Shown here one piece after another: positions 12,704-54,950 of a stretch of 64,000 nucleotides of DNA (positions are counted from its first letter, which is position 1; every line of letters starts with the position of its first letter). The stretch is from Ricinus communis (taxonomy: Eukaryota > Streptophyta > Magnoliopsida > Malpighiales > Euphorbiaceae): the NCBI RefSeq assembly GCF_019578655.1, contig NC_063256.1, positions 1,054,001 to 1,118,000 on the forward strand, read 5' to 3'. Made by a program: the position numbers and the translations under genes. The notes below the pieces were generated by a model. That model was given only the letters and a program-made list of their open reading frames with translations. It had not been told where the DNA came from and did no database searches.

Positions 12704-12763
12704 TTTGATTCTTTCAATTGTGTGGTCGGGTACTTTGAAAACATTTCTTGTTCATTATGATTC

Positions 12764-23483: not shown

Positions 23484-23853
23484 GGTGGCGGGTTGTGTTT
23501 ATCCGCAGCCTTTTTTCGCGCTTTCTTGCTCACACAACACAAACCCTACAATCAGAAGAGAGAGAGGCTTCAAAGGATAGGTTAGGGATTTTATGTTTTG
23601 TTAGGCACGCTGAATGGTTTAATGCTTTCCGGCCCATTTGAGTGTTTTGTTGAAAATCAGCAACCTCGAAACGTAAAGCCCAATAAGATGCATCAAGCAA
23701 GAACCCGAGTCCAATGATAGCTCTCCTGTTTTTTCATATTTTTCGGTGTTTAGCAGCGTATTAGCTGATTTTAATATGTAACGCTCGAGCCAAAAGTGTT
23801 TGTTTTTTATTTTTTTTTGTTTTTTAAGAAAGAAAGAAGCACAAGTGTTTGAT
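23484..23853 (-). promoter_or_regulatory. RPS13 promoter and 5' leader
   Basis: About 370 bases upstream of the RPS13 start. A telo-box AAACCCTA is at 23541-23548. Site II-like TGGGCC/TGGGCT elements, read on the minus strand, are at 23631-23636 and 23677-23682. Plants use this pair widely in ribosomal-protein genes. The same block with RPS13 exon 1 (23442-23853) recurs at 42036-42447 with a single substitution that I can see. At TTTGAT (23848-23853) the sequence switches to the left flank of block C. Confidence 0.75.
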
Positions 23854-23881
23854 ATATAATTAAATTTTCTTCATTAGATTT

Positions 23882-24030
23882 TGTTACGAGATACATACTA
23901 TGTATATGTATACTAGTTATACGATATACTGTATAGTGATGTGTATACATACCAAAGGGTAGGGTTGAGACCCTATATATATGTTGTTTTGTTTCAATGA
24001 AAGGCAGGGGAGATAGTATTCTTCTCAACA
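23882..24030 (+). repeat. 5' LTR of the copia element
   Basis: 149 bases from TGTTACGAG to CTCAACA. Compared with the 3' LTR I count about 16 differences including one indel, roughly 11%, which indicates an old insertion. Confidence 0.93.
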
Positions 24031-24200
24031 TAGTATCAGAGCAACGTGAGCGGCGCAGCTGAAGCGTGGTGGACCCTTAACCCACAGGTCCCGGGTTTGA
24101 TGCAAATGAAATACAGTTTATTTTAGGGTCCAAGAAGTTTTTTTTTAGACGAGTAACACACTCAAAACCCTAAATTTCTTTTTTCTGCTATTTTGAGGAT

Positions 24201-25271
24201 ATGGCAGACGACGATGAAAAATCTTCTTCCAGCCATTATGTTGGAAGCGATAGGAAGATTGATGTTTTCTTATTAAGGTCCTCGGATAATTTTGGTAATC
24301 TCATCACTCTGATTCAGTTGAATGGAGACAACTACGATGAATGGACGAGGGCAGTTCGCACAGCTTTGCGAGTGAAGCGAAAGTTTGGGTTCTCGAATGG
24401 CAGTATCGAGAAGCCCGCGGAGAACAATGCCAAGCTAGATGATTGGTATACTGTGCACTCGATGCTGGTGGCTTGGCTTATGAACACGATCGAGTCTTCG
24501 ATTCGGATGATGCTTTCGTTCTATGAAGATGCTCGTGAGTTGTGGGTTGCTCTAGAAAGGCAATTATGTGTGGTTAATGGCACACGCATTTGTCAATTGA
24601 AGACATCTTTAGTTGAGTGTAAGCAAAGCACAACGGAATAGGTGGCTTCGTATTTTGGGCGGCTGAGTAAGATCTTTGATGAATTGTTGATGTATGTGGT
24701 GTTGCCCAGGTGTATGTGCAGTGGGTGCACTTGTGGCGGCTGTAGGTGTCATATGGCAACCCAATACCAGACCTTCTTGCAGGAGGACCAGTGTCAGTGG
24801 TTCCTTGTTGGTTTAGATAATGCATATGCTTCGCTGCGGTCTCAAATTTTGAACCATGATCTTCTGCCTTCTGTGGACCGTGCGTACTAAATTGTGGCTC
24901 AAGAAGAACGACTGCGTGGTGGTCACAAGGACGATCGTGAGACGGTCATGGCATTTAGGGTCCAATCTGACCCCAGAAGTAAACCAAAATTTAGTGCTAA
25001 TTCCGAAAAATTTTATGCTAATTGCAAGATGGACATGATGAAAGCACGTGTTTTCAAATTCATGGCTTTCCGGATTGGTGGGGTGATCGACCTCGTGGTG
25101 GCCGTGGGCCTGGTTGTAGAGGCAGAAGAGGACGTGGTGTCATGGCAGGGAGAGGGCGAGGAGGCATGGCAGCAAGGGCAAACAAAGCCATTACTAGCAC
25201 CTCGACACAACAACAATAGACTCATGGACACTTGTCTAGCACCGTGGAGCAGGCTGGATTGTCTAACATAA
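24201..25271 (+). pseudogene. copia gag remnant
   Basis: Starts with an ATG and an acidic/Ser-rich leader, then the plant copia Gag pattern with LNGDNYDEW and a WLMNTIESSI region typical of the UBN2/gag family. A stop at 24639-24641 interrupts the frame. The same reading frame resumes to 24890, then a degenerate zinc-knuckle region (CKMDGHDESTC, readable only with a frame change near 25010-25060) and an Arg/Gly-rich tail follow. Not translatable as one protein. Confidence 0.85.
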
Positions 25272-25562
25272 CTCCGGAACAAAATGGCAGAATATTCTTG
25301 ATCTTCTCAATCTGCCGACACCCAAGGATCGAGACTCTGGTGAATATTCTTGGATTTTTGATACAAGAGCAACGCACCATGTAACAGGGCGACTAGATTG
25401 GATGATCGATGTGTGGAAAATTAGCTGATGTCCTGTAAGTTTGCCAGATGGTAGTAGTTCACAAGCTACTCATGAAGGGAGTGTGGTGCTGCCATGGAGT
25501 CTACAAATTAACAATATGTTGTTTGTTCCCAATTTGACTGCAATCTAATTTCTGTCACATAG

Positions 25563-28422
25563 TTGTTGGATGAAAAGAATTGTACTGTTCAAATAACTAA
25601 CACATTGTGCGTTGTACAGGACCGAGTGACGAGGCAGTTGATTGGAGTGGGTGAAGGCGAAGATGGACTTTTCTTTTTCCGTGGTGTGCCTCGAACTCGG
25701 GTTCAAGCTCTTTATGGTGGAAGCTCAATGAAGTTGTGGCACCAGCGTTTGGGACACTCGTCAGAGACTGTATTTAAGAAGGTTCCTAATGTGAGTATTT
25801 CTAGTAGGTTGAATAAAAATGGTTGTGATGTCTGCTATCGTGCAAAGCAGCCTAGAAAGAGTTTTCAGATTAGTAACAGTAGAACTAGTAGACTTCTTGA
25901 ACTCGTACATTGTGATTTGTGGGGACCTCATAGGACTCAGTCCTCTTGTGGGCATATTATTTTTTGACTATTGTTGATGACTATTCGAGAACAGTTTGGG
26001 TTTATTTATTGTTTAATAAATTAGAAGTTGAATTTTCATTTATGAATTTTGTGGCCTTGGTAGAACGACAGTTTGATCAGAAAATAAAACGAGTTCATAA
26101 TGATAATGGAACCGAGTTTAAATGCTTGAAAAATTACTTTGTGAAGAATGGCACGATTTTTGAGACGTCATGTATAGGTACACCGCAACAAAATGGTTGG
26201 GTAGAACGTAAAACATAAACATATCTTAAGTGTAGCACGAGCTTTATGTTTCCAGGGACACTTGCCTATGAAATTTTGGGGGGAATGTGTGATGGCGGCA
26301 TGTCATTTAATTAATCGTACTCCTTCAAGTGTGCTTGATTTTAAAACTCCGCATGAATGTTTGTTTGGAAAATAACCTGATTTAAGTGCTATACGAGTGA
26401 TGGGATATTTGTGTTATGCTCAAAATCAAAAATCGAAAGGGGACAAATTTGAGAGTAGAAGTCGTAAATGCATCTTTCTTGGTTATCCGTTTGCTAAAAA
26501 GGGATGGTTGTTGTACGATTTAGAGAAAAAAGAGTTACTTGTTTCAAGTGATGTTGATTTCTATGAACATGTCTTTCCTTTGGCTGGAAGCAATGTGGAC
26601 CGGGATTCTCATATAGTACCAAGTGATGCGGGATTGCATTGTGATGAGTTTGATGAAGCAATAGACAGTGATGATAACATGAGTATTGGTAGGGCAGTTC
26701 ATAATGAACCTGCTGGCAGCAGTGCGGAGGTGGGAACAGCAGGAGGTGGTGTAATGGGAGGTGAAGCAGGCGAGGTTAGTGTGCTACCTGGTTATGGCAG
26801 TGACAATACCGGTCTTGAGGAGGTGGTGGTACGAGCATATGAAATTGGTACAGAGGCGGAAATAGGAAAAGGGAAACGAGTTAAGATTCTAAATTCCCGC
26901 TATTAAGGTTTCGTTACACATGATTGTGAAAAAGAAAAGTCCGTCTGAACAATCACTCTCTTTATCGACTACCTCAGGTACTCCTTATCCTATTTCGCAT
27001 TATGTATCTTGTGAACGATTTTCAAATAATTACAAAAAATTTGTAGCAGTTGTGAATGCAAGCACACCACCTAAAACATTTAAAGAAGCAGTGAAACATG
27101 AAGGTCGGAGAAAAGCCATGGCAGAGGAAATTAGAGCGTTAGAAGATCAAGAAACATGGGTGCTACAAGAGTTGCCTCCTGGGAAGAAAGCTCTAGGTAA
27201 TCAATAGATATATACAGAGAAACGATATGCAGAGCAAAATTTAGTGAGATTAAAGGCAAGACTTGTGATATTCAGAAACCATCAGGTAGAGGGTATTGAC
27301 TATACTGAGACTTTTGCTCTTGTGGCGAAAATGGTGACAGTACGGACATTTCTGGCTGTTGTAGCGATCAAGAATTGGGATGCATATCCGATGGATGTTC
27401 ACAATGCCTTTCTTCACGGTGATCTAGAAGAAGAAGTTTACATGAGGATACTTCCGGGATTTGAAAAAAGTAACAATAGAAATGTGGTGTGTTGAATGAA
27501 GAAGTCGTTGTATGGCTTAAAACAGGCGCCTAAATATTGGTTTGCTAAACTAACATCGGCACTAAAGAGTTATGGCTTTAAACAGTCTTATTCAGACTAC
27601 TCTTTATTTACGATTACCAAGAGTAAGATTCAGATTAATGTTCTTGTGTATGTGGATCATATGATAATTGTAGGAAATGATAAAGTGGCATTAGCAGTGT
27701 TCATGGATTATCTTGGAAAGTGCTTTAAAATGAAGGATTTGGGACCTTTGAGATATTTTCTTGGGTTAGAGGTAGCGCGGAGTAAGGAAGGTATTTTTTA
27801 TGTGTCAACGGAAGTATGCATTGGATATTATATCTGAGTCGGGTCTATTGTGGTCAAAGCCAGCGAAATTTCCTATGGAGTGTAATCACAGATTGTCGTT
27901 AGCTAGTGGGAAACTGCTCGGAAATGCAGAGCGATATAGGCGGATAGTGGGTTGACTTATTTATCTCGGCGTGACTAGACCGGATTTAGCGTACTCTGTT
28001 CACATTTTATCTCAGTTTCTGCAGGATCCACGGGAAGAACATTAGGATGCTGCTTTGAGAGTTATCCGTTATTTGAAGAAGAACCCGTGCAAGGTGTATT
28101 GTTGAGGGCAGATAGTGAGTTGAGTTTGGAAGGATGGTATGACTCAGATTGGGTTAGTTGCCCATTGTCCCGCAGATCGCTGAGTGGATGGTTTATGTTA
28201 CTTGGTTATTCTACAATCTCCTGGAAAACCAAGAAGCAACACATTGTGTCACGCTCATCGGCAAATGCAGAATATCATTTAATGACGTCTATTACGTGTG
28301 AATTAAAATGGCTAAAGCAACTACTCGGAGATTTAGGAGTTCAGCATAAGAAGGGAATGAGACTCTATTGTGACAGTCAGTCGGCTTTGTATATTGCTCT
28401 CATGAGCGCACTAAACATATAG
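25563..28422 (+). pseudogene. copia pol remnant (integrase, reverse transcriptase, RNase H)
   Basis: Pieces in order: GAG-pre-integrase with LWHQRLGH (25563-25967), integrase core with VDDYSRTVWVY and [10 protein letters not shown] (25946-26218), the C-terminal integrase extension (26397-26906), reverse transcriptase (26920-27837), and RNase H with DSDW and YCDSQSAL (28087-28422). Stops or frame changes separate them at about 26218, 26906, 27207, 27495 and 27837. The polymerase box reads YVDH instead of YVDD, so a catalytic aspartate is lost besides the frame damage. Confidence 0.9.
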
Positions 28423-28585
28423 AAGCCGGTTGCCACTTTGTTTGAGATGCAATTTTAGATAGCTTGATTGATCCATCGTATGTATCTACGAAGGTTCAGT
28501 TAGTGGATATATCTCTGAAGACATTAGGAAAGTCACAGTTCGAATTTTTGTTGCCTAAGTTGAGCGCCCTCCAACTTGAGGGGGG

Positions 28586-28733
28586 TGTTACGAGATACAT
28601 ACTATATATATGTATACTAGTTATGCTGTATACTGTATAGTAGTGTCTATACATACCAAAGGATAGAGTTGAGATCCTGTGTATATGTTGTTTTATTTCA
28701 ATGAAAAGCGGGGAAATAGTATTCTTCTCAACA
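28586..28733 (+). repeat. 3' LTR of the copia element
   Basis: 148 bases from TGTTACGAG to CTCAACA, preceded by the G-rich polypurine tract and followed by the GATTT target duplicate. Confidence 0.93.
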
Positions 28734-28738
28734 GATTT

Positions 28739-31700
28739 GCAAAAAGTCAAAAGGGGTATTGGCTTGCGCTCCCAAGAATTGGCAAAAATCCAATTCAAGT
28801 ATAAATTTATTGATTCCCTCCTCCTACGCATGAAATGGAATTGGGACCAATCTAATTCCATTTTACATAGCTCTAGAACTCCTTTTCTTTTATAATAAAG
28901 CTAACCAATCTAATGGACACAAACCCCTGTTGGTAGCTTTAGCCACCCAATCAGCAGCCCTGTTAATGCTAGTAGTCACTATCACGGCTATAATTTAGCT
29001 ACTTCCCTGCAGCAAGAAGTAAAAAAAAAAAAAAAAAGGCTCCTTCAACTTGAACCTGGCTGTTTGATTAATTTCCCCAACATGGCAATTGGCAAATCCA
29101 TTTTATTACCTGTGCGTTAAGGCTAGATAATAACAACAAATGATTTTGACTACTCTTGTGGGAATGAATTTTTCATTCTTGAATTTGGCAGGTCAGAAGA
29201 GAATTCTGTGCTTTATTTACGAGTCCCTGAACTTGTCTTTCAATTCTTCCGATTCGCTTTTTAAGTTTTGAAGCTCATCTTGTGTTGCAAATTGACCTTT
29301 CTCCATTGTTTTGGTTGGGTTCGGTTGGACTTCTTTTCCTGCTATTGCCAAGTCATCCATTGACAAGGAACATTGTCGTATTAAGCTTTTCTAATTGCAA
29401 TATAGTAGCGGGTGAACAGTGTCATGGAAGGTTGGTTGCTGTAGATAGATTTATTGTTCGTTTCAGCAGTTTAGCTGCTGCTGCTATGTATTGTTGGTTT
29501 GTGTTAATGTGTTTTTATTTACGGCTGTATGGTATATCTGCTTTTCAGTTTTAATAATATAAGAAACAGACGAGTGGGCCAATGAGCCCTTTATCATAGG
29601 CAATACAGATGGGTCACCTATAATTAAAAGGTCATGGATACAAATTTTACTATCCTAAATGGTTTTCTTTGAAGCGTTAATTTAGATGTACAGGATTAAC
29701 AATCGGTTCTATTGTAGTTTTTTAGGGTGAATTTTGTATGGAAGAACCCCTAATCTATATAATATCTACTGCAGGACTACTGTTGGCACCTGTACGACCA
29801 ATCAAGTAACTAGTTATAATAATTTTGGTATTGGCTTTACATATTCACTTCACTACCACCTTAATCATTTAGTTCCTCCATTTCGTATTGATGTTATTAT
29901 TTCATATAAAAATCGTGTTCAACTCTTTATGTTATTTAGAGAATTATTAGATCCATTTTCCACATTCTTCTAGTTATTCTTATGTTGTACGATTAGTGTT
30001 CATTTTCCAGTTTGTCGAGAGATGGATAAATTATTAGTTGGAGATATAATTGCTTTTTGCACGGGCGCAAAATGTTCTGGTTATTAACAGCAAATCACGA
30101 ACAGGGAAGCTTGTATAGTTAGCCTGATAAATGAATCTAATCATGGTTTTTGGCTCCATTGATGCTGATGGAATGATTTGGTGCTGTTGATATAACTCTG
30201 AAAGAGTGGCAATGTACTGATCTGGTGTTTTATTTTATGCTGATGTTGATCCATCTGTTGCTGCTGATGCTGTTCTAATGTTGTTGCTGTAACTATGTTA
30301 CTGGTGCTTTTACCTGCTTTTGCTGTTTTACTGTTGTTGACCGCGTTCCTTGCTATTGTTCTTCTGATGCTACTGCTGCTAGGGTAGTTGCCATTGGTTT
30401 GGTTTAATCTGCTGCAATCTGTCTGGATCTCTGTTGTCCTTGTATAAGCTGCTGATACAGCTCTGCTGTTGTTGATGCTGTTTTGCTGCTGCTGATGTCG
30501 TTGTTCTGCTACGGAGGCTGCAATCTTGGTCCACATTGAGTTTTGATCTCATTTCTGGAGCATTTCGTTTGACACATTGTTGTTGCTTTCAGTTTTCGTT
30601 TTGGAATAGCATATTTATGCTATTTATACTGACTATGATTCTTCTTGGGTGCTTCAGCAAAAAGTTGGTAGCTAGTCTGCTACTTTGTTGCTTAGATTAG
30701 GTTGTGGTTTTCTCATCAATATAAGTTGGTTTTTCCCCCATTTAATTAATAAAAGCTCATCTGCTTATCAAAGAAAATAATAATGTAGAAAACACCACGG
30801 TTTTTAAACTAACCTGGTTATAACATGAATTTTGATATTAACAACCAAATATTTTAAGCTTTATCAGCAAAAATATACTGAACTTGATTTAATTGGCTTG
30901 GATAACGCCTGTCTGGCTCAACAATATTTGTAGCCCAGAATAATGACTAATTTGATGGCCCTTTAATATATATAGACAAGATAGGTAGACATATATACTT
31001 AAAATTAATTCTTTTGTACCTTTTTTGAGATGTAAAATTACTTATTAAATCTCTGTATTCAGGTTTAGAAAGTAAATATTAAACATATGTACAGAATTAT
31101 GAGCCATTAAATCTTGTAAATACAGAATTAGTAATTTCTCAACTTAATCCAGTTCTACAACTATATCGTGAAGGACTTACATAGTGACTATTGATAAATA
31201 GTACAACATATTCACTCCTTATATACAACGAATCAGCCATAATTTCCAGAGTAACTGAGCTCTGAATTCGGCGTGGGAACACTATCCAGCAATGAATAGA
31301 TCTCCGTTACTTTAGGATGGGACTTGTCTTGCACAGAGAATTCATGAGTAATACCCTCTAGGTCAATCCAACTGCAACCAGGAATTTTCTTCAAATTTCT
31401 TTCTTTCATCATTGTCCTAACCCTACTGGCCTCATCCCACATATGAAGACCCGCATACATATTAGACAGAAGCACATATGAACTCGAATTAGAAGCATCT
31501 AGCCTTATTAGATGCTCAGCTAAAGGTTCTCCAACAGTGAAGGTTTGATGAGTTTTACAAGCACTGACTAAAGTCCTCCAAATCACATCATTTGGTTCAA
31601 TCGGCATTTCTTCTATGAATTTGCTGGCTTCTTTTAGATGCCCTGCCCGGCTGAGGATGTCAACCATGCACCCATAGTGTTGCAGTTTTGGCTCCACTTT

Positions 31701-33219
31701 GTAAACTCTTCTCATAAGCTCAAAACATATCATACCTTCCTTCATCAAGCCAGCATGGCCACAAGCGTTTAACAGTCCGATGAACGTTATATCATCTGGT
31801 TTGCTCCCCACCCTCTCCATCTCTATAAGAAAATGTAAAGCTAATTCACCCATGCCGTGAATGGCCAATCCATTTATCATGGCATTCCAATGATCAGCAG
31901 TTTTTCCTTTTATGCCCTCAAAGACCAACATGGCATTCTCTGCGCTGCCACATTTAGAATACATGTCAATCAAAGCAACACCGAGTTTCTCCTCCAGGGA
32001 AAACCCATTTTCCTGTATATAGCAATGTATTTCAACCCCTTTTTCAATATGCCCTAACTGAGCAATTGCAGAAAGAACAATCAACAACGTGGCATTGTCA
32101 GGACACAGATTACTCTCTCTTTGCATATCATGAAAGATACCTAAAGCTTCCATGCAGTAGCCATTTTGTACGTAACCACTCATCATGGCATTACAAGCAA
32201 CAACATCTCTATCTGGCATGTTATCAAAAAATTTCCTAGCAATATCAACATAGCCTAATTTAGCATACCCATCAACCATGTTAGCCCAGCTAATTATAGT
32301 CCTTTCCGGCATCGTATCAAACAAAGCCTGAGCATCTTCCATCCTCCCACGTTTCGCACACCCATCAATCATTGAGTTCCACGAAATCAGATCTCTCTCA
32401 GGCATTTTCTCAAACAAATTCCAAGCAAGCTCGAATCCATTGTCTGACCGCATATACCCACTTAATAAAGAATTCCAAGAAACTAAATTTCTCCAATTAA
32501 TCGGCATAACATCATACAATTGACGTGCCAGGTCAATGTTACCATGCTTGACATAACCAGCTATCATCGAATTATATGAAACAGAGTCTCTCATGGGCAT
32601 TTTATCAAACACTTGACGTGCGTAATCTATGCATCGACATTTTACATACAACCCGATCAAGCAATTTTGCAAAAACACATCAGACCCGAATTTTAATTTT
32701 CTCAATAACCCATGAATTTGCATTCCTTCCTTAACCAACCCCAGTCGAGAACATGCTTTCAAGACCAAAGAAACCGAAAACTTGTCCACAAAAACCCCAT
32801 TCTGAAGCATCAGAGAGAAAATTATTAACGCTTGTTTTGGGTCATTTCCATGAGAGTGAGTCTTGATTACAGCATTCCAGAGAAAAGGGTCCTCTTTTTC
32901 TCGTGCACCGATAATATAAGCATGACGTGTAAAGAAAATATAGCGAGCAAATTCGTGAAGTGCCACGTTTGGTGAGGAAGAGAGAGACAGTATGATTTTA
33001 GTAGTTAAAGAAGTGTTTTTGATAAACCCAGTTGTTATCATCCTTGCATGGACTTGATTTATGTCGCTTGCAGTTTTGCATTTTCGGACAAGAATCAGAG
33101 TTGATAGCGGTGAATTCCACGGCTGTTGATTTGTACTGGCACAGATAAGCATTAATTGAGCTAAACTTCTCCGATCTCTAATTATTCAGAATGAATAGCC
33201 TGTCGCAGAAGATAGGGTT
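28739..33219. repeat. Duplicated block C, copy 1 (contains PPR gene)
   Basis: Matches 50034-54516. The first about 90 bases differ at four or five positions. The remaining about 4.4 kb shows only around eight differences, including non-coding sequence, that is about 99.8% identity. The left part of the block (23848-23881) is separated from it by the copia element. Between the element and the PPR stop (28739-31232) I see no supportable gene. 30141-30536 is CTG/CAG-rich, and 30700-30780 resembles a retroposon 3' end running into an A/T-rich tail. Confidence 0.95.
31233..33152 (-). CDS. CRR4-like PLS/E+-type pentatricopeptide repeat protein, copy 1
   Basis: Single-exon PPR protein of 639 residues, expected in an organelle as a site-specific RNA-editing factor. 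The opening residues and overall layout resemble Arabidopsis CRR4 (At2g45350), which edits the plastid ndhD start codon. Assignment to CRR4 rests on resemblance and synteny, not on a search. It has tandem P, L and S motifs (repeated SYNSMI.GYVK, SWNSMIDGCAK and VACNAMMSGYVQ-type units) from about residue 60, then the E region (VISACKTH-like VSACKTHQTF, LSNMYAGLHMWDEASRVR, MKERNLKKIPGCSWI) and an E+ end. There is no DYW deaminase domain, so it would need a partner. The protein is identical to copy 2 at 52530-54449. It keeps 360 bases of upstream sequence (33220-33579) missing from copy 2. Confidence 0.93.
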   Translation of the reverse strand: MLICASTNQQPWNSPLSTLILVRKCKTASDINQVHARMITTGFIKNTSLTTKIILSLSSSPNVALHEFARYIFFTRHAYIIGAREKEDPFLWNAVIKTHSHGNDPKQALIIFSLMLQNGVFVDKFSVSLVLKACSRLGLVKEGMQIHGLLRKLKFGSDVFLQNCLIGLYVKCRCIDYARQVFDKMPMRDSVSYNSMIAGYVKHGNIDLARQLYDVMPINWRNLVSWNSLLSGYMRSDNGFELAWNLFEKMPERDLISWNSMIDGCAKRGRMEDAQALFDTMPERTIISWANMVDGYAKLGYVDIARKFFDNMPDRDVVACNAMMSGYVQNGYCMEALGIFHDMQRESNLCPDNATLLIVLSAIAQLGHIEKGVEIHCYIQENGFSLEEKLGVALIDMYSKCGSAENAMLVFEGIKGKTADHWNAMINGLAIHGMGELALHFLIEMERVGSKPDDITFIGLLNACGHAGLMKEGMICFELMRRVYKVEPKLQHYGCMVDILSRAGHLKEASKFIEEMPIEPNDVIWRTLVSACKTHQTFTVGEPLAEHLIRLDASNSSSYVLLSNMYAGLHMWDEASRVRTMMKERNLKKIPGCSWIDLEGITHEFSVQDKSHPKVTEIYSLLDSVPTPNSELSYSGNYG

Positions 33220-33579
33220 AAACGGTATTCTAACGCCTATTCCGCGCGTCACTGGATAGGGCTGGGCATGGCATGGCATGGTAGGCCCAGACGGCTGAAA
33301 CAGGTCTAGTAAAATACATTCGAGGTAGTTAAGTAATTCTCATACGTAAATAGTAAAAATATAATATTTTTCATAAATAAAAATCCAGATTTTTGGAGCT
33401 CTGAGTTTTAATGCAACCGGAAATTTGGATTCTGTTTTAGTTATGGCCAAATACCTATTAAAATGTTTCAAATCTCAACAGTGATATGACTTAATTATAT
33501 ATATATAATATTCTTAAGAAAGTAAGTCCCGGGTGAATTTAATTAGGCACACAAATTCAAAATCATACGAAAACGAGAC
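33220..33579 (-). promoter_or_regulatory. Upstream segment present only at PPR copy 1
   Basis: Lies 67-427 bases upstream of the PPR copy 1 start and contains a site II-type TGGGCC (read on the minus strand, around 33281-33287). At copy 2 the sequences on either side are joined directly at about 54515 with a few bases of microhomology. Either an insertion here or a promoter deletion there; the second seems likelier, but I cannot decide. Confidence 0.55.
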
Positions 33580-34002
33580 TTTAATTACATGAGTAGGAGT
33601 AGTTTTTGTTTATGTCAGGGATGTAGTTGGCCAGCTAAAAAGTTTGTTTCCACATTGTTCATGTCTCTCCGTTTTCATTTGTTACATGAAAACAATAATT
33701 CTACACCAATTTTTCAGCTGATGAAATCTATTGAATTTGTTGCCAACTTATCTAATAAGGCATTTTTTTTAAGAAAAATTATGTCTTAAGAAAAAAGAAG
33801 AAGAAAACGGATGGACTTTTTCTTTTTTTTTTTCCAATTCTTTTAAAATCATTTTATTGATATCTTGATTTGGTTCTATGTTATGCAGTCGAACAAGACA
33901 GGCGGGTGATCTTTTTCAACAATGAGGAAGGTCAAAGCAAGGCAATTGTTTCTATATAATACTTAATTAACCGTTGATCTATTCACTACTGTAAGAAGCT
34001 GA
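33580..34002. repeat. Duplicated segment E, copy 1
   Basis: Matches 54515-54950 with about 6% substitutions plus small indels, much more diverged than the adjoining PPR block. No gene in it. Confidence 0.85.
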
Positions 34003-34170
34003 TTTTTTATAAAACAAAAAGACATTGTAATTATAATAAGCAGAGAAATATCGAAACCTCGGATGAGAGCAAAAATCAGGGATGATACTCAAATTCAAAT
34101 TTAATAACACTATTCTCAATATTAACTGTCAGATTTTAGACAATATTTACGATCTGCAAACGGTAGTTCG
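34003..34170. repeat. Repeat F, left copy
   Basis: About 170 bases, from a TATAAAACAAAAAGACATTG stretch to a CAAACGGTAG stretch. It recurs in direct orientation at 41309-41456 with about 10% differences and small deletions. The two copies bracket the B'-A' block. 34171-34433 has no feature I recognise. Confidence 0.8.
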
Positions 34171-34433
34171 TTTCCACCCCTCTATTTCCGCACGTCTTTT
34201 AAACGAATTGGCGTTCCATTACAATCCAATTATGGTTTGATAATATCTTATTGGTCCTTCATATATATATTTATTTTCTTTTTTTTTTTCTCATTTCAAA
34301 CTAGTGATTGTTTTTGTCTAATTCAAATGCTATTTTAAATTCAATCAATTTTGTCATGCTTTGTTTGCCGATAGAAGTGTATCCTAGCTTGTCAGCAAAG
34401 ATTTTCAGTAAATAATACGAATGCAGAGTTATT

Positions 34434-36780
34434 GAATTTTCATCTTTTGTCATTATTTATGTTGGGTACATCCTAATTAGATTTAACTAAACACCTCATG
34501 ATTCTTTGAACAATATTAAGGAGAAATACTACCTCCGGATCAAACTAAATAGTATACGAAAGTGCTTGAACCCTATAGTCTAGGCCTCATTGGCTTGAAT
34601 TTTTAGTCGCATATCACATACAAATTCTAATTATTAATCAAATTCTTCTTTACACCCATTTCAATGAGAGACCATGTTTCTCCTGAATCATAAAATTATC
34701 GATCTTTTATCCATAAAACATGTCCAACCAATTGCGAAAATACTACAATGTTTATTAGGCAGACGACATTACAAATAACTACTTCACAGCTTCGATACAG
34801 GAATGCGATTGCTTAACATTCTTTGCTTCGCATTCAATTACAAACAGAAGAATTATGCAACTAAACTCCCTTAACCAAGTAATTCCAGCACTAAAAAACT
34901 TCATACTTTCTCATCTAAATACCTAAACAGTCAGAATAGGTTACTTCCAAAACTTTCTTCATTTCCCTCAGAAATTTGGAAATCAGTTGTACAACTTAAA
35001 AGAATGTCTATATCAACCTATGTACATATAAAACATCACTCACAAAAATTAGATTCATCAAAAGTTTTAATTCTACTTTTTCATTTTTGATGCCTGAATC
35101 AATTTCATTCATTCACCATAAGCTATATGCATAGTGTAGCATGCCAAATACATGACACAAAACAACAAGGGCCTTTCGTAACTAGAACCGATCATTTCAT
35201 GGGTGTGAAAATAATCATAATCATGTTATGTTGAAAACGATATTGGTAGTCTATCTGGCCATCAATCGATCCTTTCAAAGTACTTTACGAGCACAACACC
35301 ATCAAAACCTTCAGTCAAGATCACCCTATTGTCCGATATGTAAAGCTTCATTCCATCTGAAGTCAACAAAACAACAAAAAATGTTTTAAAAGAAAGAACA
35401 GCAATTTTCATTCATGAATTCCTAACTAGCAAATGAAAGGTAGAAATTTTTTAACTTGCATACTGTTCACTATATGCTAAAGATGTCAAAAGTTAGGCTA
35501 ATCTACCTTCTAGAGCCTTTTTCACATCAAGATATATCAAAACATTCACATTCCGCCTCATACCTGAAAGACAAAAGAATCAATTCAATCATCAAAAGAT
35601 GCACTTTCTACAAGAATCACTAGAAGAATTGATCTTGTATTTGAAAAACTATAATATATGCTCTGATTGCTACTACAGTGATCCTTCTTGTTTCCCTTTA
35701 TCAGCATCCTTCAACTTAAACTACAAATGACCTTCAGCATAAATCCACTATTTGACATGTTGAATGCTAGACACCGAAGGATCATCTAGTAAGCATGCCC
35801 AATAAGCTGTCAGGTGATTGCACAAAATTATCCAATAAATGTACGAATTCCGAGGAAATAGAATCCTCACATGATCGTAATACTTAATTAGGATCTTCAA
35901 CATGCACAATTAGAGACCCAGTATTATTACTAAGTTTGATAATTATCAAAACAAAATTGACGGAAAATAAGATGGAGGTAACACAGCACGTCTTCACAAT
36001 ACAAGGTCATGAATAGTAAGAGAATAATGAATTATACGATTGAAGAGAAACCCTACCACTAATTTCTTCACCATCAGTTGGCAAGCCACATGAGAAGTGA
36101 ATATGCAATCTTTGCATGCGCTTTAAGCCAGACTCCAAAATAGATTCCAAATTCTTCTTATAGGTTCCATGTACGCACACTACAACCGCATGAAAAGATC
36201 AGTAAATATATACAAAAACCTTAGAGTATATAAGTAAAAGAAAAGGGAGAAGTATCATATGATAGAACAATGATATTGCACAAATTATTTGTTTCCACCT
36301 GGTATTTCATCAGCTAAAATAATTGGCTTCAGTAAACTTGCAGATTCAACTGTCTGCGCACTCATAAGAAAGGCATTCAAGCATACATTCAATCAAAGAG
36401 AAATCAAGGCATGTCAGGATTTATTACAACAATGGAAAAATCTAACAATTGTACCAAAAGGATTTGTCACCTTTATTGTGTGGCCTTGGTTTGCACGTAT
36501 CAGAAGCTCCCCATTTTCCTATAGGAGGCTGAATCGCTGCTTATTATCCCTTCTGACAGCCTGAAATTTCAAACATACAAAATTATAACCTAGGGCAGCT
36601 TGTGCAAGAAAATATAATTTGATACAAGAATTAAGAAGTAGATGGTGAAGATAAAGGTGTAGATGTCAGGCAAGCAAAATATATCAACAGACCTGGAAAG
36701 TAATAAAAGCAGACCAATGCTTATTATCCCTTCTCTAAAATCCTTTTCAACAATGGCTAGATTAAGCAAAAAAAAAAAGA
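34434..36780. repeat. Duplicated block B' (transposed copy)
   Basis: Copy of 17062-19445. It begins at GAATTTTC, the very point where block A ends at the original locus. Near its right end a 41-base stretch of the original is replaced by about ten bases (CTTATTATCC) that also occur nearby at 36538-36549, which looks like templated filler. Confidence 0.92.
35226..36560 (-). pseudogene. tRNA 2'-phosphotransferase fragment (exons 4-8), broken
   Basis: Holds copies of exons 4 to 8 of the gene at 17868-20434. Exons 1-3, including the LRH catalytic residues, were never included in the block. Exon 4 carries a nonsense codon (CTA TAG, where the parent has CTA GAG) and exon 8 carries another (GAT TGA, parent GAA TCA) near the end. 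The exon 7 start reads GMRRN, where the parent has GMRWN, so the copy may preserve the older residue at that site. Not functional. Confidence 0.9.
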
Positions 36781-36868
36781 AAAAAAAAAAACAATGGCTA
36801 GACGCACAGCCCTTGGTAGCACTGGACATTTTATGATCTTTCGTTAACATTTCTATGATCGTTAACAT
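36720..36868. other. B'/A' junction with filler sequence
   Basis: Links the end of block B' to the start of A'. It contains a second short copy of the ACAATGGCTAGA sequence, an A-tract, about 35 bases of unknown origin, and an extra partial copy of the first about 30 bases of A' (CTTTCGTTAACATTTCTATGATCG repeated). Such short local repeats are typical of template-switching end joining. Confidence 0.75.
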
Positions 36869-39800
36869 TTTGTGATTGTTCTTTCGTTAACATTTCTATG
36901 ATCGTTCATTGCCCAGTTATTGTCTTTTCATATATGTTAATTGATGCTATATACGGAGTATCATGTCCTGTGTCCAAGAAGATTTTTGTTGAGCTGTATC
37001 AAAGAAAAACAGAACCTTCATTTTCTTCTATTTCTATTTTTGAAATATGTAATTGTTGTAGTTTTGGCATTGTAGAATTCATGACTGGTAGAACATATGC
37101 TGATTGTTGGGCATGTATTTTTTCCTGTGCAACTTCAATAAAATTGTACACGTTGATTTGGCATTGTGCTTCTCTAACTGGATGAACTAAAATATTGATT
37201 CACTCATGTTTTCACTATCTTTTTCTTTTCCTGTCATTTAAAGGCTGCTTTGTTAAGACTATGCGCGCGTGTGTGTGTATAGCAATGTGTTCGGTTGCAT
37301 TTACTTCTTATCCTTGTTTAATGCAAAGATCTTTCCTTTTAGAACACCCTCCCTTTAATCCGAGGGAATTGTAAATCCTTGTTCCATGATATGCTGGCAA
37401 TTATTAGCAATCTGTAGAAGCATGACGCTATGTGGTTACATGTTCTGGCTTAAGTAATCTAATATATGTGTGTGCTATGTGGTCACCTGCAATCCTGAAT
37501 TTTGTTTTGAGGTTTGCCTTCTTTTCTTCTTAAAACCTATTTTTCTATCATCCCACAGTTTTATGCTTTGTGACTTCGAGTTAGAATTCATTGTGGGCTT
37601 CTGGCTTATAGGATATGAGTACAGTATGTATGTTGCACTGTGCTGCAATCAGGATTGCTTCCTTCTCATAGTTCTCAGTATCCTGAAAAACAAACATTGT
37701 TGGGTTAGTTTGAGCTACACTGCTCTTGCGTACTCCAGCCATATAGTGTTTCCAATGTAAACCATGTATTGCATATATTGAATTTCATCATTCAATTTTA
37801 GTTATTCACTTGCCATATGAAAATATATGAGTCTGTTATTGAGCAATGAATTTTTTGTTACTGAGTTTCCTGCTGCCTTTGATTTGTCTTTCATTAACTG
37901 CTTGATTGTTTTTACTTCTAATCTGTGTAACTGGCCTAACTATGTAGGAGACTGAAGTGGTCCTTTTTTTTTTCTTTATCTCTTTTCCCTTGGAGACAAA
38001 AAGAATCACTAGTCTTTCTGAGCATCAACTACCATCATCCTGACTATAGTCTAGGCTAGAGAGAATTATGATAAAGTTGGTTGTGCAATGAATGTTCTTT
38101 CATGGAAATGTGCTTAGTTCACAAGATAGGAAGAAAAGTTTCGAGGATTGGTTTGCACATTCATATAACTGGAATCTAGTAGCAGGAAACTGTCTTTCTA
38201 CAGACCTGCACTGTAAAGATATGATAGGCAGAACCTCTTCATCCCCACTTGCTTAAAACTTAATATGTATATATATATATATATATATAGTCATGGACGG
38301 TATATTGTTGAGAAATTTGAGCTCAATCTTCACAGATGCGTAGATTTGTAAGAGATGCATGGTTAAGTACATGAACCATAATTTTTTCAATATTGTAGAT
38401 CCCGTGACACTGGTAATAGTTTTTGCATTTATAAGGTCAGGACCAGCTTTTTGAACCTTACCAAAACTACTTACTACGAAGACAACAGGGTTCAATCTGA
38501 AATGTAGCATTACCTTTCTTTTTCTCATATTAGCATCAAAACTTTTCATTGGGCGCAATGCATTTTGAATCATCCATGCTGATTGCATCACACTCTATTC
38601 AAATAGTGAGTGAGTTTGTAACATCTTATTGCCGCAGAAGCACTCCCCAATTTCCCGATGAAGAAGTCTAAACTACATACTAGAGCTCATACTGGCCTTT
38701 CATAAATTATTAAGCAAGCATCATAAATTAACTTTTTCATTTCTGAAGTTACGTGATCAAACAAAACTGTAAACGCACTTTTATAAGAAACCTATCAAAT
38801 GCTAAATAAGTAACGATTGCCGCCAGCCAAAATAAAAATCAAGAGAATTTAAAAAAATAAGAAGCAAGTATTACATATCAGAAATCATACTTAGTTCTAC
38901 CACTCATTAAAATAAGGCACAACATATCAGAAATGTCAGAAGCAGATCTGAAGAAATTCCATGATTCGAGCATTAGACGTTTCCTTGATCCCTTAAAATG
39001 CACCACCTTGACATCCAAAGGCATTCCGTGAAATTGACCTGCTCCCTCAGGTGGTGTCCAATTATATGTAGCACATGGTAGAAAGAGGACTGATGCACCT
39101 CCCATCTCATCCATAAAAGCCTGTGCTTTACGAAATCTCGACAGATCAAAGCCAGGGTGTGATCTTATGACCCACGCAAGAGCTAACTGATCTCCAAGCA
39201 TTCGAGAAGCATTCATGTACTTGGAAGTGTAGACTTCTAGCACATGCTGAAGGAAAATCTTTGCTCTACAGCCAATTTATATCATGAGCAAGTGTCAAAA
39301 ATTTAACAATTTAATTTCTATTTGCCTAGAATTTGGAGAACATAAGGAAAGAAAAAAGAAGGGGAGAAAGCCAAATGACAATTGTTTCTCCCAAGTTATA
39401 TACCAAAAAACCCAAAAAAAGACTCAATTTAATCACTATCCTAGCTAACCCACAAGGTTGTGCAGGATCAGAATTAGAGTCTGAAGAACCTAGGCAAACC
39501 AAACAAAAGAATTATCCAAACAGTTTTTGCAATCCAATTAATCACAGTGAAAAAAGGAATACTAGCAAATGCAAATTACATACCTCAAAATTGACTCGGC
39601 AGTCCCCCTTACTGCAATAAACCCAGAATTTAAAGGCTGCTCTTTGTTGTTGCGGAAGGTGAGGGCTATATGGAAATTTCGATATTCATGAAAAATGCGC
39701 CCGAGGTCATCAACCACAGCTATATCTGAGTCTGTAAAGATGTAATGGCTTTTATGAACTGGGTTCTTAGCAAGCTCCTTGAGCTTCGTGTCTAGAAAAT

Positions 39801-41164
39801 TCTACATAAACAACATACAAATTGCAAAAGAGAAATTCATACGCTCATCAGCAGTATGCATATTTTGGAAGAAAATAAGATAAAGCACTGCAATGGAGTT
39901 AATTAGGACTTGTTGGCTTGGTGGGAAGTAAGAATATCAGGAAATCTTGTGCAGGATAAAAACAAAAGCAAGAATAAGAAGGTTCATAAAAGATGCCATA
40001 GAAACAAAACAACAAATTCAAAACAGAAATATTCTACCTATTTGGCAATGCGATGAGCTCTTACAATGTAAGATCTGATTCTTTGAAGCATCAACTTTTC
40101 TCTAGAATATTCTCCCTGAATAGGATACAGAGTAACTTTATCTCTTTGCAGCAAGAGATCAGATGCTGGATCAGTTAGGATGATAACATTGCTTTGAGGC
40201 ATAGTCACCTGAAATTGTACTTCTGAAATAAGAGTCGCAATAACTACATAATGGAAGCAAGTGGACATGGTTCTGATAAACTATTACATAGATATGATTC
40301 GGTAGATATTAGGCAGAGCATACAAAATTGAGAAGAAATTATATAACTTCCAAAGGCTAACAAAATGTCATCACATATATTATACATTTCGATTAAAACA
40401 TTTTCAAGCATGACTTCAACGGAATCAATTACCTGAATGAAATTAATGAATACATTCAAAATGGCCATTGACCTCTCTGTCTTACTGTAAGAAACATTCC
40501 CAACAGTGACAAAGTTTGATGATCTATCATTAGGAAGAGAATCCAGTGAAGTGTTGTAAATGGTAAAGACGGTAACAAATGCAACGTTATCTCCAACATT
40601 GGAGCCAGAGGAAGAATCCAGCAAATGGGTTTTGTTGAGAGCTTTGGAGCCTAGACAACATTAAAAACATGAATCACATATACAACAAGCAAAACAACAG
40701 TAACTATGCAAGAAACAATAACAAGTAAAAGAAAAGTAAAGACTATAAGAAACCTTCACATTGCAACCGATCAGGCAAGCCTTGGCCAGCAGCAGGCCCA
40801 AGAACCAGATGATCAGACTTTTTATTCCGATTCTTCTGGGGAGCTTCAGTGACCGAGTTCGAATGCAATTCCAGCACTAAAATCAATTTTATTTTTTAAA
40901 ATTTTAAAAAATAAAGCAACAATTTAGTTCATGTATCGGATAATGAATAAATAGAAATATAAAACATAAGGAGAAGGGAGGGAGGACAAATCACCAGAGA
41001 AGATATGAAAGATGACGAGAAGCAGAAAGAAAGAAAGGATGAAACGACGCCATCCACTCCATGTTCTCATTCTTAATCAATATTTCTATTGGATCTTAAA
41101 GTTCAATAACCATACGCACTGAAGTTGTTCCTAAGAAAAAGGGAATATTAAATACTAGAGAATT
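36869..41164. repeat. Duplicated block A' (transposed copy)
   Basis: Copy of 12764-17066, starting in GAE 3' untranslated sequence although no GAE coding region is present. It ends at GAGAATT, the A/B boundary of the source. The region 36869-38877 has no supportable gene; open frames there match frames in the GAE 3' flank and are unlikely to be coding. A (TA)n run lies at about 38266-38288. Confidence 0.93.
38878..41070 (-). CDS. Glycosyltransferase-like protein, copy 2, intact
   Basis: Homologue of an uncharacterised plant membrane-anchored glycosyltransferase-like family (Arabidopsis At2g45320 by position). Six exons: 40995-41070, 40754-40876, 40433-40650, 40065-40208, 39584-39801 and 38878-39265, giving 388 residues with no stop. 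The N-terminus (MRTWSGWRRFIL...) is a basic cap with one hydrophobic anchor of about 16 residues, so a type II Golgi protein is likely. The motif HYIFTDSDIAVVDD in exon 5 is the probable nucleotide-sugar/metal DxD site. The conserved tail has ATYNWTPPEGAGQFHG and VVHFKGSRK. It differs from copy 1 at about 18 residues, some non-conservative (P to R beside FHIALTF, two W changes in exon 2), so constraint may be relaxed. Only about 95 bases of the original upstream sequence came with it. Confidence 0.85.
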
Positions 41165-41308
41165 AGCAAACCAAACCATAAACAAACACGATAGAGAAAG
41201 CTGACAAGTCAAGAATGAATTGATTTCGACCCTAATATTTGAAACTAACTGCAGAATTAAGCAAGTCGTATAAAACGCTAATGATAAATGTAAAACGATA
41301 TATATTTT

Positions 41309-41456
41309 TTTTTATAAAACAAAAAGACATTGTAATTATAATAAGCAGAGAAATATCGGAACCTCGGATGAGAGAATACTCAAATTCAGATCTAATAACG
41401 CCATTCTGTATATTAGCTGTCAGATTTTGGACAATATTTAAACGGTAGATCGTTTC
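41309..41456. repeat. Repeat F', right copy
   Basis: Direct copy of 34003-34170 with small deletions. It joins the DUF1442 fragment at TTTC (about 41452-41456), a short microhomology. The 140 bases between A' and F' (41165-41308) show nothing recognisable. Confidence 0.8.
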
Positions 41457-42040
41457 ATGGTGGTGGATTGCAAACGGAGGGAATTTATTAGGGTTTTGAG
41501 GTTTGCTAAGTTGAGTAATAAATGTGCTGTTTTAGTACAAAAGAATGCCTATCAAAGTTGTTTTACCGGGTTTAGATGGCATGGAGTGCTAGAGAGAGGG
41601 ACACGTGTTGTCAGATCAGTGTTTTTGTCAGTCGGTAACAGATTCATATTGGGAGCACCACCACTACTATAGCCGGTGCTGCGAGTTTGAAAAGGAGCAG
41701 TAGCCGTTGGATTAAGTGCGTAGATCAAAAGTCAGGCGAGGAGCACGTGTTTCGTGGTTAATTTTATGATGGTGGGTTTTCCAAGTTCAATCGAATTAAG
41801 AATATGGCAATGACCACCCATTTAATTTCACTAATTGGATACCAAAATCAAAACTGTGGAGTAAAAGGGTGTAAGCTTTAGAAACCAGATGTCATGTGCT
41901 ATGGTTCAGGTTCAAGAAAAAAGATGAATATATCCTTGTTTTGTTAGTTAGATGTATTATATGGGCTGGCTAATTTGGTTAGTATCGATTGCATGAGAAA
42001 TTAGGAAATGTTTTTGAAGATGGTGACTGTGATTTATAAA
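41456..42040 (+). pseudogene. DUF1442 gene 3' fragment (unit 1 of tandem duplication)
   Basis: Matches 57893-58486, that is the C-terminal half of the DUF1442 gene at 57445-58207 plus its 3' flank. The 5' half is absent. A 10-base deletion around 41640 shifts the frame, and several substitutions lie in the coding part; the last about 330 bases look identical to the parent. It ends at GATTTATAAA, where RPS13 intron sequence begins. Confidence 0.9.
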
Positions 42041-50000: not shown

Positions 50001-53000
50001 TTTGATATATAATTAAATTTTCTTTATTAGATTTGCAAAAAGTCAGAAGGGGGTATTGGCTTGCGCCCCCAAGAATTGGCAAAAATCCAATTCAAGTATA
50101 AATTTATTGATTCCCTCCTCCTACGCGTGAAATGGAATTGGGACCAATCTAATTCCATTTTACATAGCTCTAGAACTCCTTTTCTTTTATAATAAAGCTA
50201 ACCAATCTAATGGACACAAACCCCTGTTGGTAGCTTTAGCCACCCAATCAGCAGCCCTGTTAATGCTAGTAGTCACTATCACGGCTATAATTTAGCTACT
50301 TCCCTGCAGCAAGAAGTAAAAAAAAAAAAAAAAAAAAGGCTCCTTCAACTTGAACCTGGCTGTTTGATTAATTTCCCCAACATGGCAATTGGCAAATCCA
50401 TTTTATTACCTGTGCGTTAAGGCTAGATAATAACAACAAATGATTTTGACTACTCTTGTGGGAATGAATTTTTCATTCTTGAATTTGGCAGGTCAGAAGA
50501 GAATTCTGTGCTTTATTTACGAGTCCCTGAACTTGTCTTTCAATTCTTCCGATTCGCTTTTTAAGTTTTGAAGCTCATCTTGTGTTGCAAATTGACCTTT
50601 CTCCATTGTTTTGGTTGGGTTCGGTTGGACTTCTTTTCCTGCTATTGCCAAGTCATCCATTGACAAGGAACATTGTCGTATTAAGCTTTTCTAATTGCAA
50701 TATAGTAGCGGGTGAACAGTGTCATGGAAGGTTGGTTGCTGTAGATAGATTTATTGTTCGTTTCAGCAGTTTAGCTGCTGCTGCTATGTATTGTTGGTTT
50801 GTGTTAATGTGTTTTTATTTACGGCTGCATGGTATATCTGCTTTTCAGTTTTAATAATATAAGAAACAGACGAGTGGGCCAATGAGCCCTTTATCATAGG
50901 CAATACAGATGGGTCACCTATAATTAAAAGGTCATGGATACAAATTTTACTATCCTAAATGGTTTTCTTTGAAGCGTTAATTTAGATGTACAGGATTAAC
51001 AATCGGTTCTATTGTAGTTTTTTAGGGTGAATTTTGTATGGAAGAACCCCTAATCTATATAATATCTACTGCAGGACTACTGTTGGCACCTGTACGACCA
51101 ATCAAGTAACTAGTTATAATAATTTTGGTATTGGCTTTACATATTCACTTCACTACCACCTTAATCATTTAGTTCCTCCATTTCGTATTGATGTTATTAT
51201 TTCATATAAAAATCGTGTTCAACTCTTTATGTTATTTAGAGAATTATTAGATCCATTTTCCACATTCTTCTAGTTATTCTTATGTTGTACGGTTAGTGTT
51301 CATTTTCCAGTTTGTCGAGAGATGGATAAATTATTAGTTGGAGATATAATTGCTTTTTGCACGGCGCAAAATGTTCTGGTTATTAACAGCAAATACGAAC
51401 AGGGAAGCTTGTATAGTTAGCCTGATAAATGAATCTAATCATGGTTTTTGGCTCCATTGATGCTGATGGAATGATTTGGTGCTGTTGATATAACTCTGAA
51501 AGAGTGGCAATGTACTGATCTGGTGTTTTATTTTATGCTGATGTTGATCCATCTGTTGCTGCTGATGCTGTTCTAATGTTGTTGCTGTAACTATGTTACT
51601 GGTGCTTTTACCTGCTTTTGCTGTTTTACTGTTGTTGACCGCGTTCCTTGCTATTGTTCTTCTGATGCTACTGCTGCTAGGGTAGTTGCCATTGGTTTGG
51701 TTTAATCTGCTGCAATCTGTCTGGATCTCTGTTGTCCTTGTATAAGCTGCTGATACAGCTCTGCTGTTGTTGATGCTGTTTTGCTGCTGCTGATGTCGTT
51801 GTTCTGCTACGGAGGCTGCAATCTTGGTCCACATTGAGTTTTGATCTCATTTCTGGAGCATTTCGTTTGACACATTGTTGTTGCTTTCAGTTTTCGTTTT
51901 GGAATAGCATATTTATGCTATTTATACTGACTATGATTCTTCTTGGGTGCTTCAGCAAAAGTTGGTAGCTAGTCTGCTACTTTGTTGCTTAGATTAGGTT
52001 GTGGTTTTCTCATCAATATAAGTTGGTTTTTCCCCCATTTAATTAATAAAAGCTCATCTGCTTATCAAAGAAAATAATAATGTAGAAAACACCACGGTTT
52101 TTAAACTAACCTGGTTATAACATGAATTTTGATATTAACAACCAAATATTTTAAGCTTTATCAGCAAAAATATACTGAACTTGATTTAATTGGCTTGGAT
52201 AACGCCTGTCTGGCTCAACAATATTTGTAGCCCAGAATAATGACTAATTTGATGGCCCTTTAATATATATAGACAAGATAGGTAGACATATATACTTAAA
52301 ATTAATTCTTTTGTACCTTTTTTGAGATGTAAAATTACTTATTAAATCTCTGTATTCAGGTTTAGAAAGTAAATATTAAACATATGTACAGAATTATGAG
52401 CCATTAAATCTTGTAAATACAGAATTAGTAATTTCTCAACTTAATCCAGTTCTACAACTATATCGTGAAGGACTTACATAGTGACTATTGATAAATAGTA
52501 CAACATATTCACTCCTTATATACAACGAATCAGCCATAATTTCCAGAGTAACTGAGCTCTGAATTCGGCGTGGGAACACTATCCAGCAATGAATAGATCT
52601 CCGTTACTTTAGGATGGGACTTGTCTTGCACAGAGAATTCATGAGTAATACCCTCTAGGTCAATCCAACTGCAACCAGGAATTTTCTTCAAATTTCTTTC
52701 TTTCATCATTGTCCTAACCCTACTGGCCTCATCCCACATATGAAGACCCGCATACATATTAGACAGAAGCACATATGAACTCGAATTAGAAGCATCTAGC
52801 CTTATTAGATGCTCAGCTAAAGGTTCTCCAACAGTGAAGGTTTGATGAGTTTTACAAGCACTGACTAAAGTCCTCCAAATCACATCATTTGGTTCAATCG
52901 GCATTTCTTCTATGAATTTGCTGGCTTCTTTTAGATGCCCTGCCCGGCTGAGGATGTCAACCATGCACCCATAGTGTTGCAGTTTTGGCTCCACTTTGTA

Positions 53001-54516: not shown

Positions 54517-54950
54517 TAATTACAAGAGTAGGAGTAGTTTTTGTTTACTTTCAGGGGTGTAGTTGGCCAACTAAAAAGTTTGTTTCACATCATTCAAGTC
54601 TCTCCATTTTCATTTATTACATGAAAACAAGAATTCTACACCAATTTTTCAGCTGATGAAATCTATTGAATTTGTTGCCAACTTATCTAATAAGGCATTT
54701 TCTTTTTTAAGAAAAATTACGTCTTAAGAAAAAAGAAGAAGAAAACGGATCGACTTTTTTCTTTTTTTCCATTTCTTTTAAAATCATTTTATTGATATCT
54801 TGATTTGGTTCTATGTTATGCAGTCGAACAAGACAGGCAGGTGATTTTTTTCAACAACAAGGAAGGTCAAGGCAAGGCAATTGTTTCTAATGCGTTCCTA
54901 TATAATACTTAATTAATTGTTGATCTATTCACTGTTGTACGAAGCTGATA
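54515..54950. repeat. Duplicated segment E', copy 2
   Basis: Matches 33580-34002 with about 6% substitutions. It directly abuts block C' here. Confidence 0.85.

Follow-up and report, generated by a model that had tools for sequence, protein, structure and literature searches.

A circle-like permuted duplication in the castor bean genome is probably the remnant of an eroded head-to-tail amplification

In a stretch of 64 kb of the castor bean genome (Ricinus communis, contig C1, C1:1054001-1118000, hereafter the window, whose own positions are given without prefix), two adjoining blocks, block A with a sugar-transferase gene and block B with part of the gene for the tRNA 2'-phosphotransferase Tpt1, recur further on as B' followed by A', in the same orientation and with their order exchanged. 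A first-pass annotation had ascribed this permutation to a 6.7-kb circle. Comparison of the sequences within the window and with a second locus 3.2 Mb away favours another origin, namely that B'-A' is the remnant of a head-to-tail amplification of a unit of about 36 kb, eroded by microhomology deletions, to which a probability of roughly 0.6 is assigned. The features are listed in the table; C1 and C2 without a colon denote copies of block C, and the original A and B together are called the source.

Using self-BLASTN of the window, A at 12740-17066 aligned with 36846-41164 at 96.0% identity and B at 17062-19357 aligned with 34434-36719 at 93.7% identity, both on the same strand, while a more sensitive second run extended the match of B to 19453 and 36784. 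Source and copy differ by substitutions at 129 of 4280 positions in A and at 112 of 2274 in B, and judged by their length and identity a chance origin of these matches is ruled out. These alignments agree with the first-pass annotation, according to which A-B (12764-19445) recurs as B'-A' (34434-41164) on the same strand; the permuted block order that it described is correct, and the block amounts to about one period of a unit A-T-B, where T is a spacer described below. Base-level inspection also bore out that both outer ends of B'-A' carry GAATT, matching 17062-17066 of the source, and the right end of A' and the left end of B' do meet at 17062-17066. The A/B boundary of the source reads ...ACTAGAGAATTTTCATC, the end of A' reads ...ACTAGAGAATT/AGCAAACC and the start of B' reads ...GTTATT/GAATTTTCATC, the slash marking the joint.

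However, the further claim that the outer ends of the copy adjoin at one donor point did not hold at the base level, as the real ends lie at 34003 and 41456 within T and overlap by 172 bp of this spacer. T is 561 bp long and lies intact between A and B at C1:4246114-4246674 (A-T-B stretch C1:4246047-4246870), which at C1:4246 kb is the only unbroken A-T-B copy, and the source is without T. GAATT borders T in the window copies, and in the unbroken copy the border towards A reads GAAAATT. In searches of the whole assembly, which ignore very common words so that all match counts are lower bounds, T gave at least five matches, each of them adjoining A or B and only at the window and the second locus. 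Because all its genome matches adjoin A or B, T looks like the native A/B spacer rather than a dispersed element. Deletion of T between its GAATT repeats would yield the junction seen at the source, including its 5-bp overlap, and it was probably in this manner that T was lost there; such a loss would account for the exact coincidence of the ends at GAATT. Formally, T could instead have been inserted with a 5-bp target duplication, but such an event must predate all other copies and yet spare the source. T as a transposon with a GAATT target duplication was rejected, since its genome matches occur only beside A or B and it holds no self-repeat longer than 21 bp. Similarly, the repeats at 34003-34174 and 41308-41456 were considered as long terminal repeats (LTRs) of a small element, a candidate dropped because they are the overlapping parts of T.

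The closing joint required by a 6.7-kb circle, with the end of B joined to the start of A, is likewise contradicted, since B' and A' are not directly fused. Between them, 36800-36824 (AGACGCACAGCCCTTGGTAGCACTG) is identical at 25 of 25 positions to window coordinates 66538-66562, just right of the window, a block designated H, and at the equivalent B'/A' position of the second locus about 315 bp of H (66248-66562) are present. An initial view of this intervening DNA as random filler was dropped, as it is H. The H/A joint occurs at three places, at 36.8 kb of the window, at C1:4271.4 kb and at C1:4248.4 kb, and the three joints are alike bar a few substitutions and a deletion of about 55 bp just before the joint at 4248 kb. 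A genome search with the H/A joint of the window returned the window itself, the two sites of the second locus and the two separate source pieces. When 963 bp of H were compared with the assembly, at least six matches were obtained, corresponding to H itself, 4248 kb (two pieces), 4271 kb, 4.065 Mb and, weakly, contig C7, so that H is present at no fewer than four places on contig C1. The right end of a unit (H, about 66562) is joined to its left end (A, about 12764), as in tandem repetition, and H/A has the appearance of a head-to-tail joint between units of about 36 kb, the unit from A to H coming to about 35.8 kb when summed from the block coordinates. The B/H breakpoints differ, being about 19453/66538 in the window and 19054/66248 at the second locus (window equivalent 36420). 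Neither state can be derived from the other by one deletion and hence the common ancestor had a longer B...H stretch, which on this comparison was trimmed twice, once per locus. A separate and more diverged copy of H (82%) at C1:4065334-4065924 continues beyond the joint position without A; this relative suggests that H extended a few bases further before the H/A joint formed.

The second locus also carries the permuted order. Searched against the whole assembly, the A/B boundary gave at least seven matches, all on contig C1, of which three lie in the window (source, start of B' and end of A') and four at 4.246-4.274 Mb. On the minus strand the second locus reads D, T part, B', H, A', T part, E and then an inverted fragment of A, and onward X2, the LRR kinase gene, D2, H and A, inverted A-T-B and B pieces, X1, C and X2. 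A and B are about 3-10% divergent between the two loci and the T/E breakpoint is identical at both, and the second locus also has further deletions and an LTR-like insertion of its own. Since the permuted order is present twice, a local misassembly is unlikely. At C1:4248 kb, H/A continues into A and later, in unchanged orientation, into X1-C-X2, the intervening T- and B-bearing pieces being inverted; H/A followed by pieces of a further unit is not expected from a single inserted circle alone and supports further units, though not conclusively. BLAST comparison of window coordinates -10000 to 84000 with C1:4210001-4300000 gave no match left of 12740 or right of 66562, bar one of 77 bp at 83%. 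The insertion in A' of the second locus, about 4.9 kb long (C1:4266097-4270966) and flanked by 286-bp direct repeats (94.4%), is probably an LTR element.

Under the favoured reading, a segment of about 36 kb, from 12764 just downstream of the epimerase gene to H at about 66.56 kb, would have been amplified head to tail to give H/A, each unit containing in order the sugar transferase, T, Tpt1, an LRR kinase, CRR4, DUF1442 and H. Unequal exchange would have produced several units, most of which were then erased by microhomology-mediated deletions. B'-A' would represent the end of one unit (T-B...H) with the start of the next (A-T), brought near each other by a deletion from the Tpt1 intron to the last bases of H, while one break in T would have been joined to D on the left and another break in T to E on the right. 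If the source subsequently lost T between the GAATT repeats, the copy would mimic a cut exactly at the A/B boundary. All jumps in the window would then run forward through repeated units, as A-B-C, D, T-B, H, A-T, E and C-D-Z-E-H. The block order, the joints, T, H, the second locus, the microhomologies and the gene states are read from the sequence itself, whereas we infer how many units there were, in what succession the events took place and that D/T and T/E arose by deletion rather than insertion. Ordinary tandem duplication followed by deletion is marked by a head-to-tail joint, by forward deletion joints with microhomology and by high identity between neighbouring copies. The castor bean locus shares these traits, having the H/A joint, forward deletion joints with microhomology and neighbouring copies of high identity, but differs in being so far eroded that the stretches examined retain no complete pair of units, and in that the remnant mimics a circle.

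Several observations weigh against this history. No two complete adjacent units were found in C1:1044001-1138000, C1:4210001-4300000 or C1:4056001-4076000, and the further unit at C1:4248 kb is fragmented with some pieces inverted, so that the array has to be reconstructed from remnants. Of the three passages between units that the window would need, D to T, H to A and E to C, H/A is kept in just one, and the others would require deletions that span it. The breaks in T, at T139 and T310, fall within 172 bp, for which the chance is about 1% for a named pair in a 36-kb unit; among 14 joint ends, some two are this close in 59% of random draws. Site patterns among four copies are too few and too mixed to order the events: B at 17698-18582 gave 9 sites uniting the source with one copy of the second locus (L2b), 6 uniting the source with the window copy and 0 of the third kind, A at 13172-14259 gave 7 (source with window copy), 3 (L2b with window copy) and 0, and two shorter pieces gave 2:0:0 and 2:1:1.

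The closeness of the two breaks in T speaks for a possible, though clearly less probable, alternative, in which an extrachromosomal circle of about 36 kb, closed at H/A, opened in T and entered between D and E at the cost of 2.9 kb of target, B to H being deleted later. One opening point would account for both outer ends, D/T and T/E would come from one event, T/E has TTTC microhomology, and the closing joint of unit ends that such a circle requires, H/A, is present at three places. However, the duplication of 172 bp and the loss of 2.9 kb of target stand against gains and losses of 1-27 bp given for human cases (PMC7450558), and a further H/A with pieces of another unit at the second locus would in any case call for an array or for subsequent unequal exchange. 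Perhaps the circle was excised from an array by homologous recombination; in that combined form, a circle of nuclear genes from a short tandem array would have re-entered its own locus after opening in the spacer that precedes the sugar-transferase gene, with the genes then sorting by position, the sugar transferase being retained in the re-inserted copies and Tpt1 at the original site, a scenario tentative to the same degree. If true, re-entry of a circle of about 36 kb would give plants a parallel to the circle-mediated duplications described in human and cattle.

A single replication-repair accident, by microhomology-mediated break-induced replication or template switching or of a chromoanasynthesis-like kind, that stitched together D, T, B, H, A, T, E and C is improbable. 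The many microhomology joints and short templated repeats in one place, the broadly similar divergence of the A and B copies and the inverted pieces at the second locus would suit it, but the same H/A in three contexts and the different trimming of B/H at each locus point to serial events, no inverted blocks are among those found in the window and the divergence of the blocks varies widely. The 6.7-kb A-B circle of the first-pass annotation, opened at GAATT, explains the flipped order, the common orientation and the GAATT at both ends, and is nonetheless very unlikely given H within the B'/A' joint, T beyond GAATT on both sides and the differing B/H breakpoints at the second locus. Least credible is an assembly artefact of collapsed or misjoined haplotypes, to which the near-identical D repeats (7/4487 substitutions) could have misled an assembler, since the order D/T-B-H/A-T/E is repeated 3.2 Mb away with A and B about 3-10% diverged and with deletions and an insertion of its own, the joints show microhomology or filler, and no N occurs in the window or in C1:4230001-4290000.

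Duplication by way of a circular intermediate has been proposed in human, cattle, tilapia and yeast (PMC7450558, PMC3245284). The human circle-mediated pairs of segmental duplications (Chicote et al. 2020, PMC7450558) resemble the castor bean case in the flip from A-B/C-D to B-A/D-C on the same strand and in having microhomology and no long homology at the joints; they are described there with gains or losses of 1-27 bp, a non-tandem location and a copy number of two, whereas castor bean has the T overlap, the target loss, copies in the same locus and signs of more head-to-tail units. For colour-sidedness at cattle KIT (Durkin et al. 2012, cited in PMC7450558 and PMC10462705), a circular intermediate was likewise inferred for a moved duplicate, according to these citing passages, but the segments, given as 492 and 575 kb in PMC7450558, contrast with a unit of about 36 kb and an array-like history. 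In Nile tilapia, vasa was duplicated to new sites, one with evidence of a circular intermediate (Fujimura et al. 2011, PMC3245284); there the copies lie at distant novel sites, whereas one castor bean copy lies inside the donor region. Literature searches returned, among the titles and abstract openings listed, no report of a circular-intermediate duplication of a plant nuclear gene, and no paper on tandem duplication of EPSPS in castor bean. Erosion by deletions between short homologies could give a tandem duplication the same signature as that published for circular intermediates, even to an exact base coincidence made by a later deletion at the source, and in surveys where circles are called on block order alone, the closing joint should be checked for extra sequence and the donor for lost spacers.

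The genes of the two blocks have fared differently at the two addresses. The source sugar-transferase gene (AT2G45320-like nucleotide-diphospho-sugar transferase, 6 exons, minus strand, coding sequence 16972..14780) has premature stops at codons 160 and 184, whereas its copy in A' (coding sequence 41070..38878, minus strand) has an uninterrupted frame of 388 codons and intact splice signals, and the copy at C1:4262294-4264483 of the second locus encodes exactly the annotated protein LOC8260608; two more pieces there are fragments. Between the window copy and the second locus the nonsynonymous-to-synonymous ratio pN/pS is 0.27, and changes confined to a single copy among the three, omitting five codons where all three differ, number nine nonsynonymous to four synonymous in the source, five to six in the window copy and four to eight at the second locus. 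Pfam assigned no family to two sugar-transferase exons. Conversely, Tpt1 is open at the source, with further exons at 19621-19768 and 19994-20097 past the end of B, has lost its first exons and acquired two stops in B', and is a truncated fragment at the second locus, with no stop in its four translated exons. By these reading frames, Tpt1 is kept at the old address and the sugar transferase at the new ones. The paralogues have sorted by position, LOC8260608 being annotated from a relocated copy and the copy at the ancestral address carrying the stops.

The A-B order of the source is ancestral, because eudicot locus tags and fused Tpt1-sugar transferase models share the same gene order and because B ends within Tpt1, a gene whose reading frame is open at the source. 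Locus tags of the sugar transferase, Tpt1 and CRR4 are near-consecutive in Bauhinia (L6164_003686/003687/003690), Lonicera (LguiB_010962/010961/010958) and Escallonia (RJ640_015983/015982/015977), and Tpt1 and the sugar transferase are fused in A-B order in gene models of Nyssa (P0186), Rhamnella (P0221) and Citrullus (P0239), which are probably merged models of neighbouring genes. The gene order of the window presumably corresponds to Arabidopsis At2g45290-At2g45360. By Pfam, the window holds transketolase, EPSP synthase, NAD-dependent epimerase (which we take to be GAE), PPR, LRR with kinase and two DUF1442 genes. Its CRR4-type PPR protein matches a Ricinus communis protein over 98% of the query with 2 residue differences, and the source Tpt1 protein of 235 residues is contained unchanged in a Ricinus protein.

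Table. Blocks, spacer parts and inserted element in the window (positions in window coordinates)
Feature	Position	Strand	Description
Block A, source	12764..17066		Starts 61 bp past the stop of the upstream epimerase open reading frame; sugar-transferase gene inside
GAATT	17062..17066		A/B boundary of source; scar of probable T deletion
Block B, source	17062..19453		3' part of Tpt1 gene, minus strand; right end in intron
Block C1	23442..23857		Joined to D1 by 6-bp TTTGAT; C-D stretch with LRR-kinase gene missing here
Block D1	23852..34003		CRR4/At2g45350-type PPR gene and flanks; copia element inserted
Copia element	23882-28733		LTRs 23882-24030 and 28586-28733, 149 bp, 89% identical; target-site duplication AGATT; left edge of D1
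Right-hand T part (T139-561)	~34003..34433 (alignment from 34000)	+	Left of B', joined to D; true left end
Block B'	34434..36784		Tpt1 fragment without exons upstream of 19453; two premature stops
H remnant	36800..36824	+	25 bp; joined to B' by 3-bp AGA microhomology; then H/A joint
Block A'	36869..41164		Complete open 388-codon sugar-transferase gene, minus strand
Left-hand T part (T1-310)	41165..41456	+	Right of A'; true right end of permuted block
Block E1	41444..42040	+	3' part of DUF1442 gene; joined to T by TTTC
Block C2	42036..42455	+	E1/C2 joint with 5-bp microhomology ATAAA
D2, spacer Z (54950-57882), E2	50001..58486		Reference for the interrupted D1...E1 copy

The permuted block sits in an interrupted copy of D and E, as D1...E1 is without the spacer Z (2.9 kb, including the 5' half of a DUF1442 gene) and has B'-A' in its place. 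Microhomology was found at five joints, in a tally that excludes D/T, namely the source (GAATT, 5 bp), C1/D1 (TTTGAT, 6 bp), B'/H (AGA, 3 bp), T/E1 (TTTC, 4 bp) and E1/C2 (ATAAA, 5 bp), and random joins of window sequence (n=20,000) showed at least 5 bp in 0.7% and at least 3 bp in 6.6%. Self-BLASTN revealed no inverted blocks among those found in the window. Block C as a copia LTR, which would have placed 28.7-42 kb inside a copia element, was rejected, since the LTRs and target-site duplication of the element itself were located elsewhere. Substitutions by block number 7/4487 in D, 2/415 in C, 6/588 in E and 24/420 in 33580-34003, and because the blocks differ so widely, divergence is unusable as a clock.

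Within B', 36719-36735 (TGCTTATTATCCCTTCT) repeats a stretch near 36540 in place of the source bases and resembles a templated insertion. The low count for D comes from D1 at 28733-33222 compared with D2 at 50029-54519, which encode identical 650-aa PPR open reading frames, and the higher one from the adjoining 33580-34003 compared with 54515-54949; near-identical D1 and D2 beside a diverged flank suggest recent gene conversion or unequal exchange. Two distinct DUF1442 genes, at 57524-58207 and 60385-61128, lie near each other in opposite orientation.

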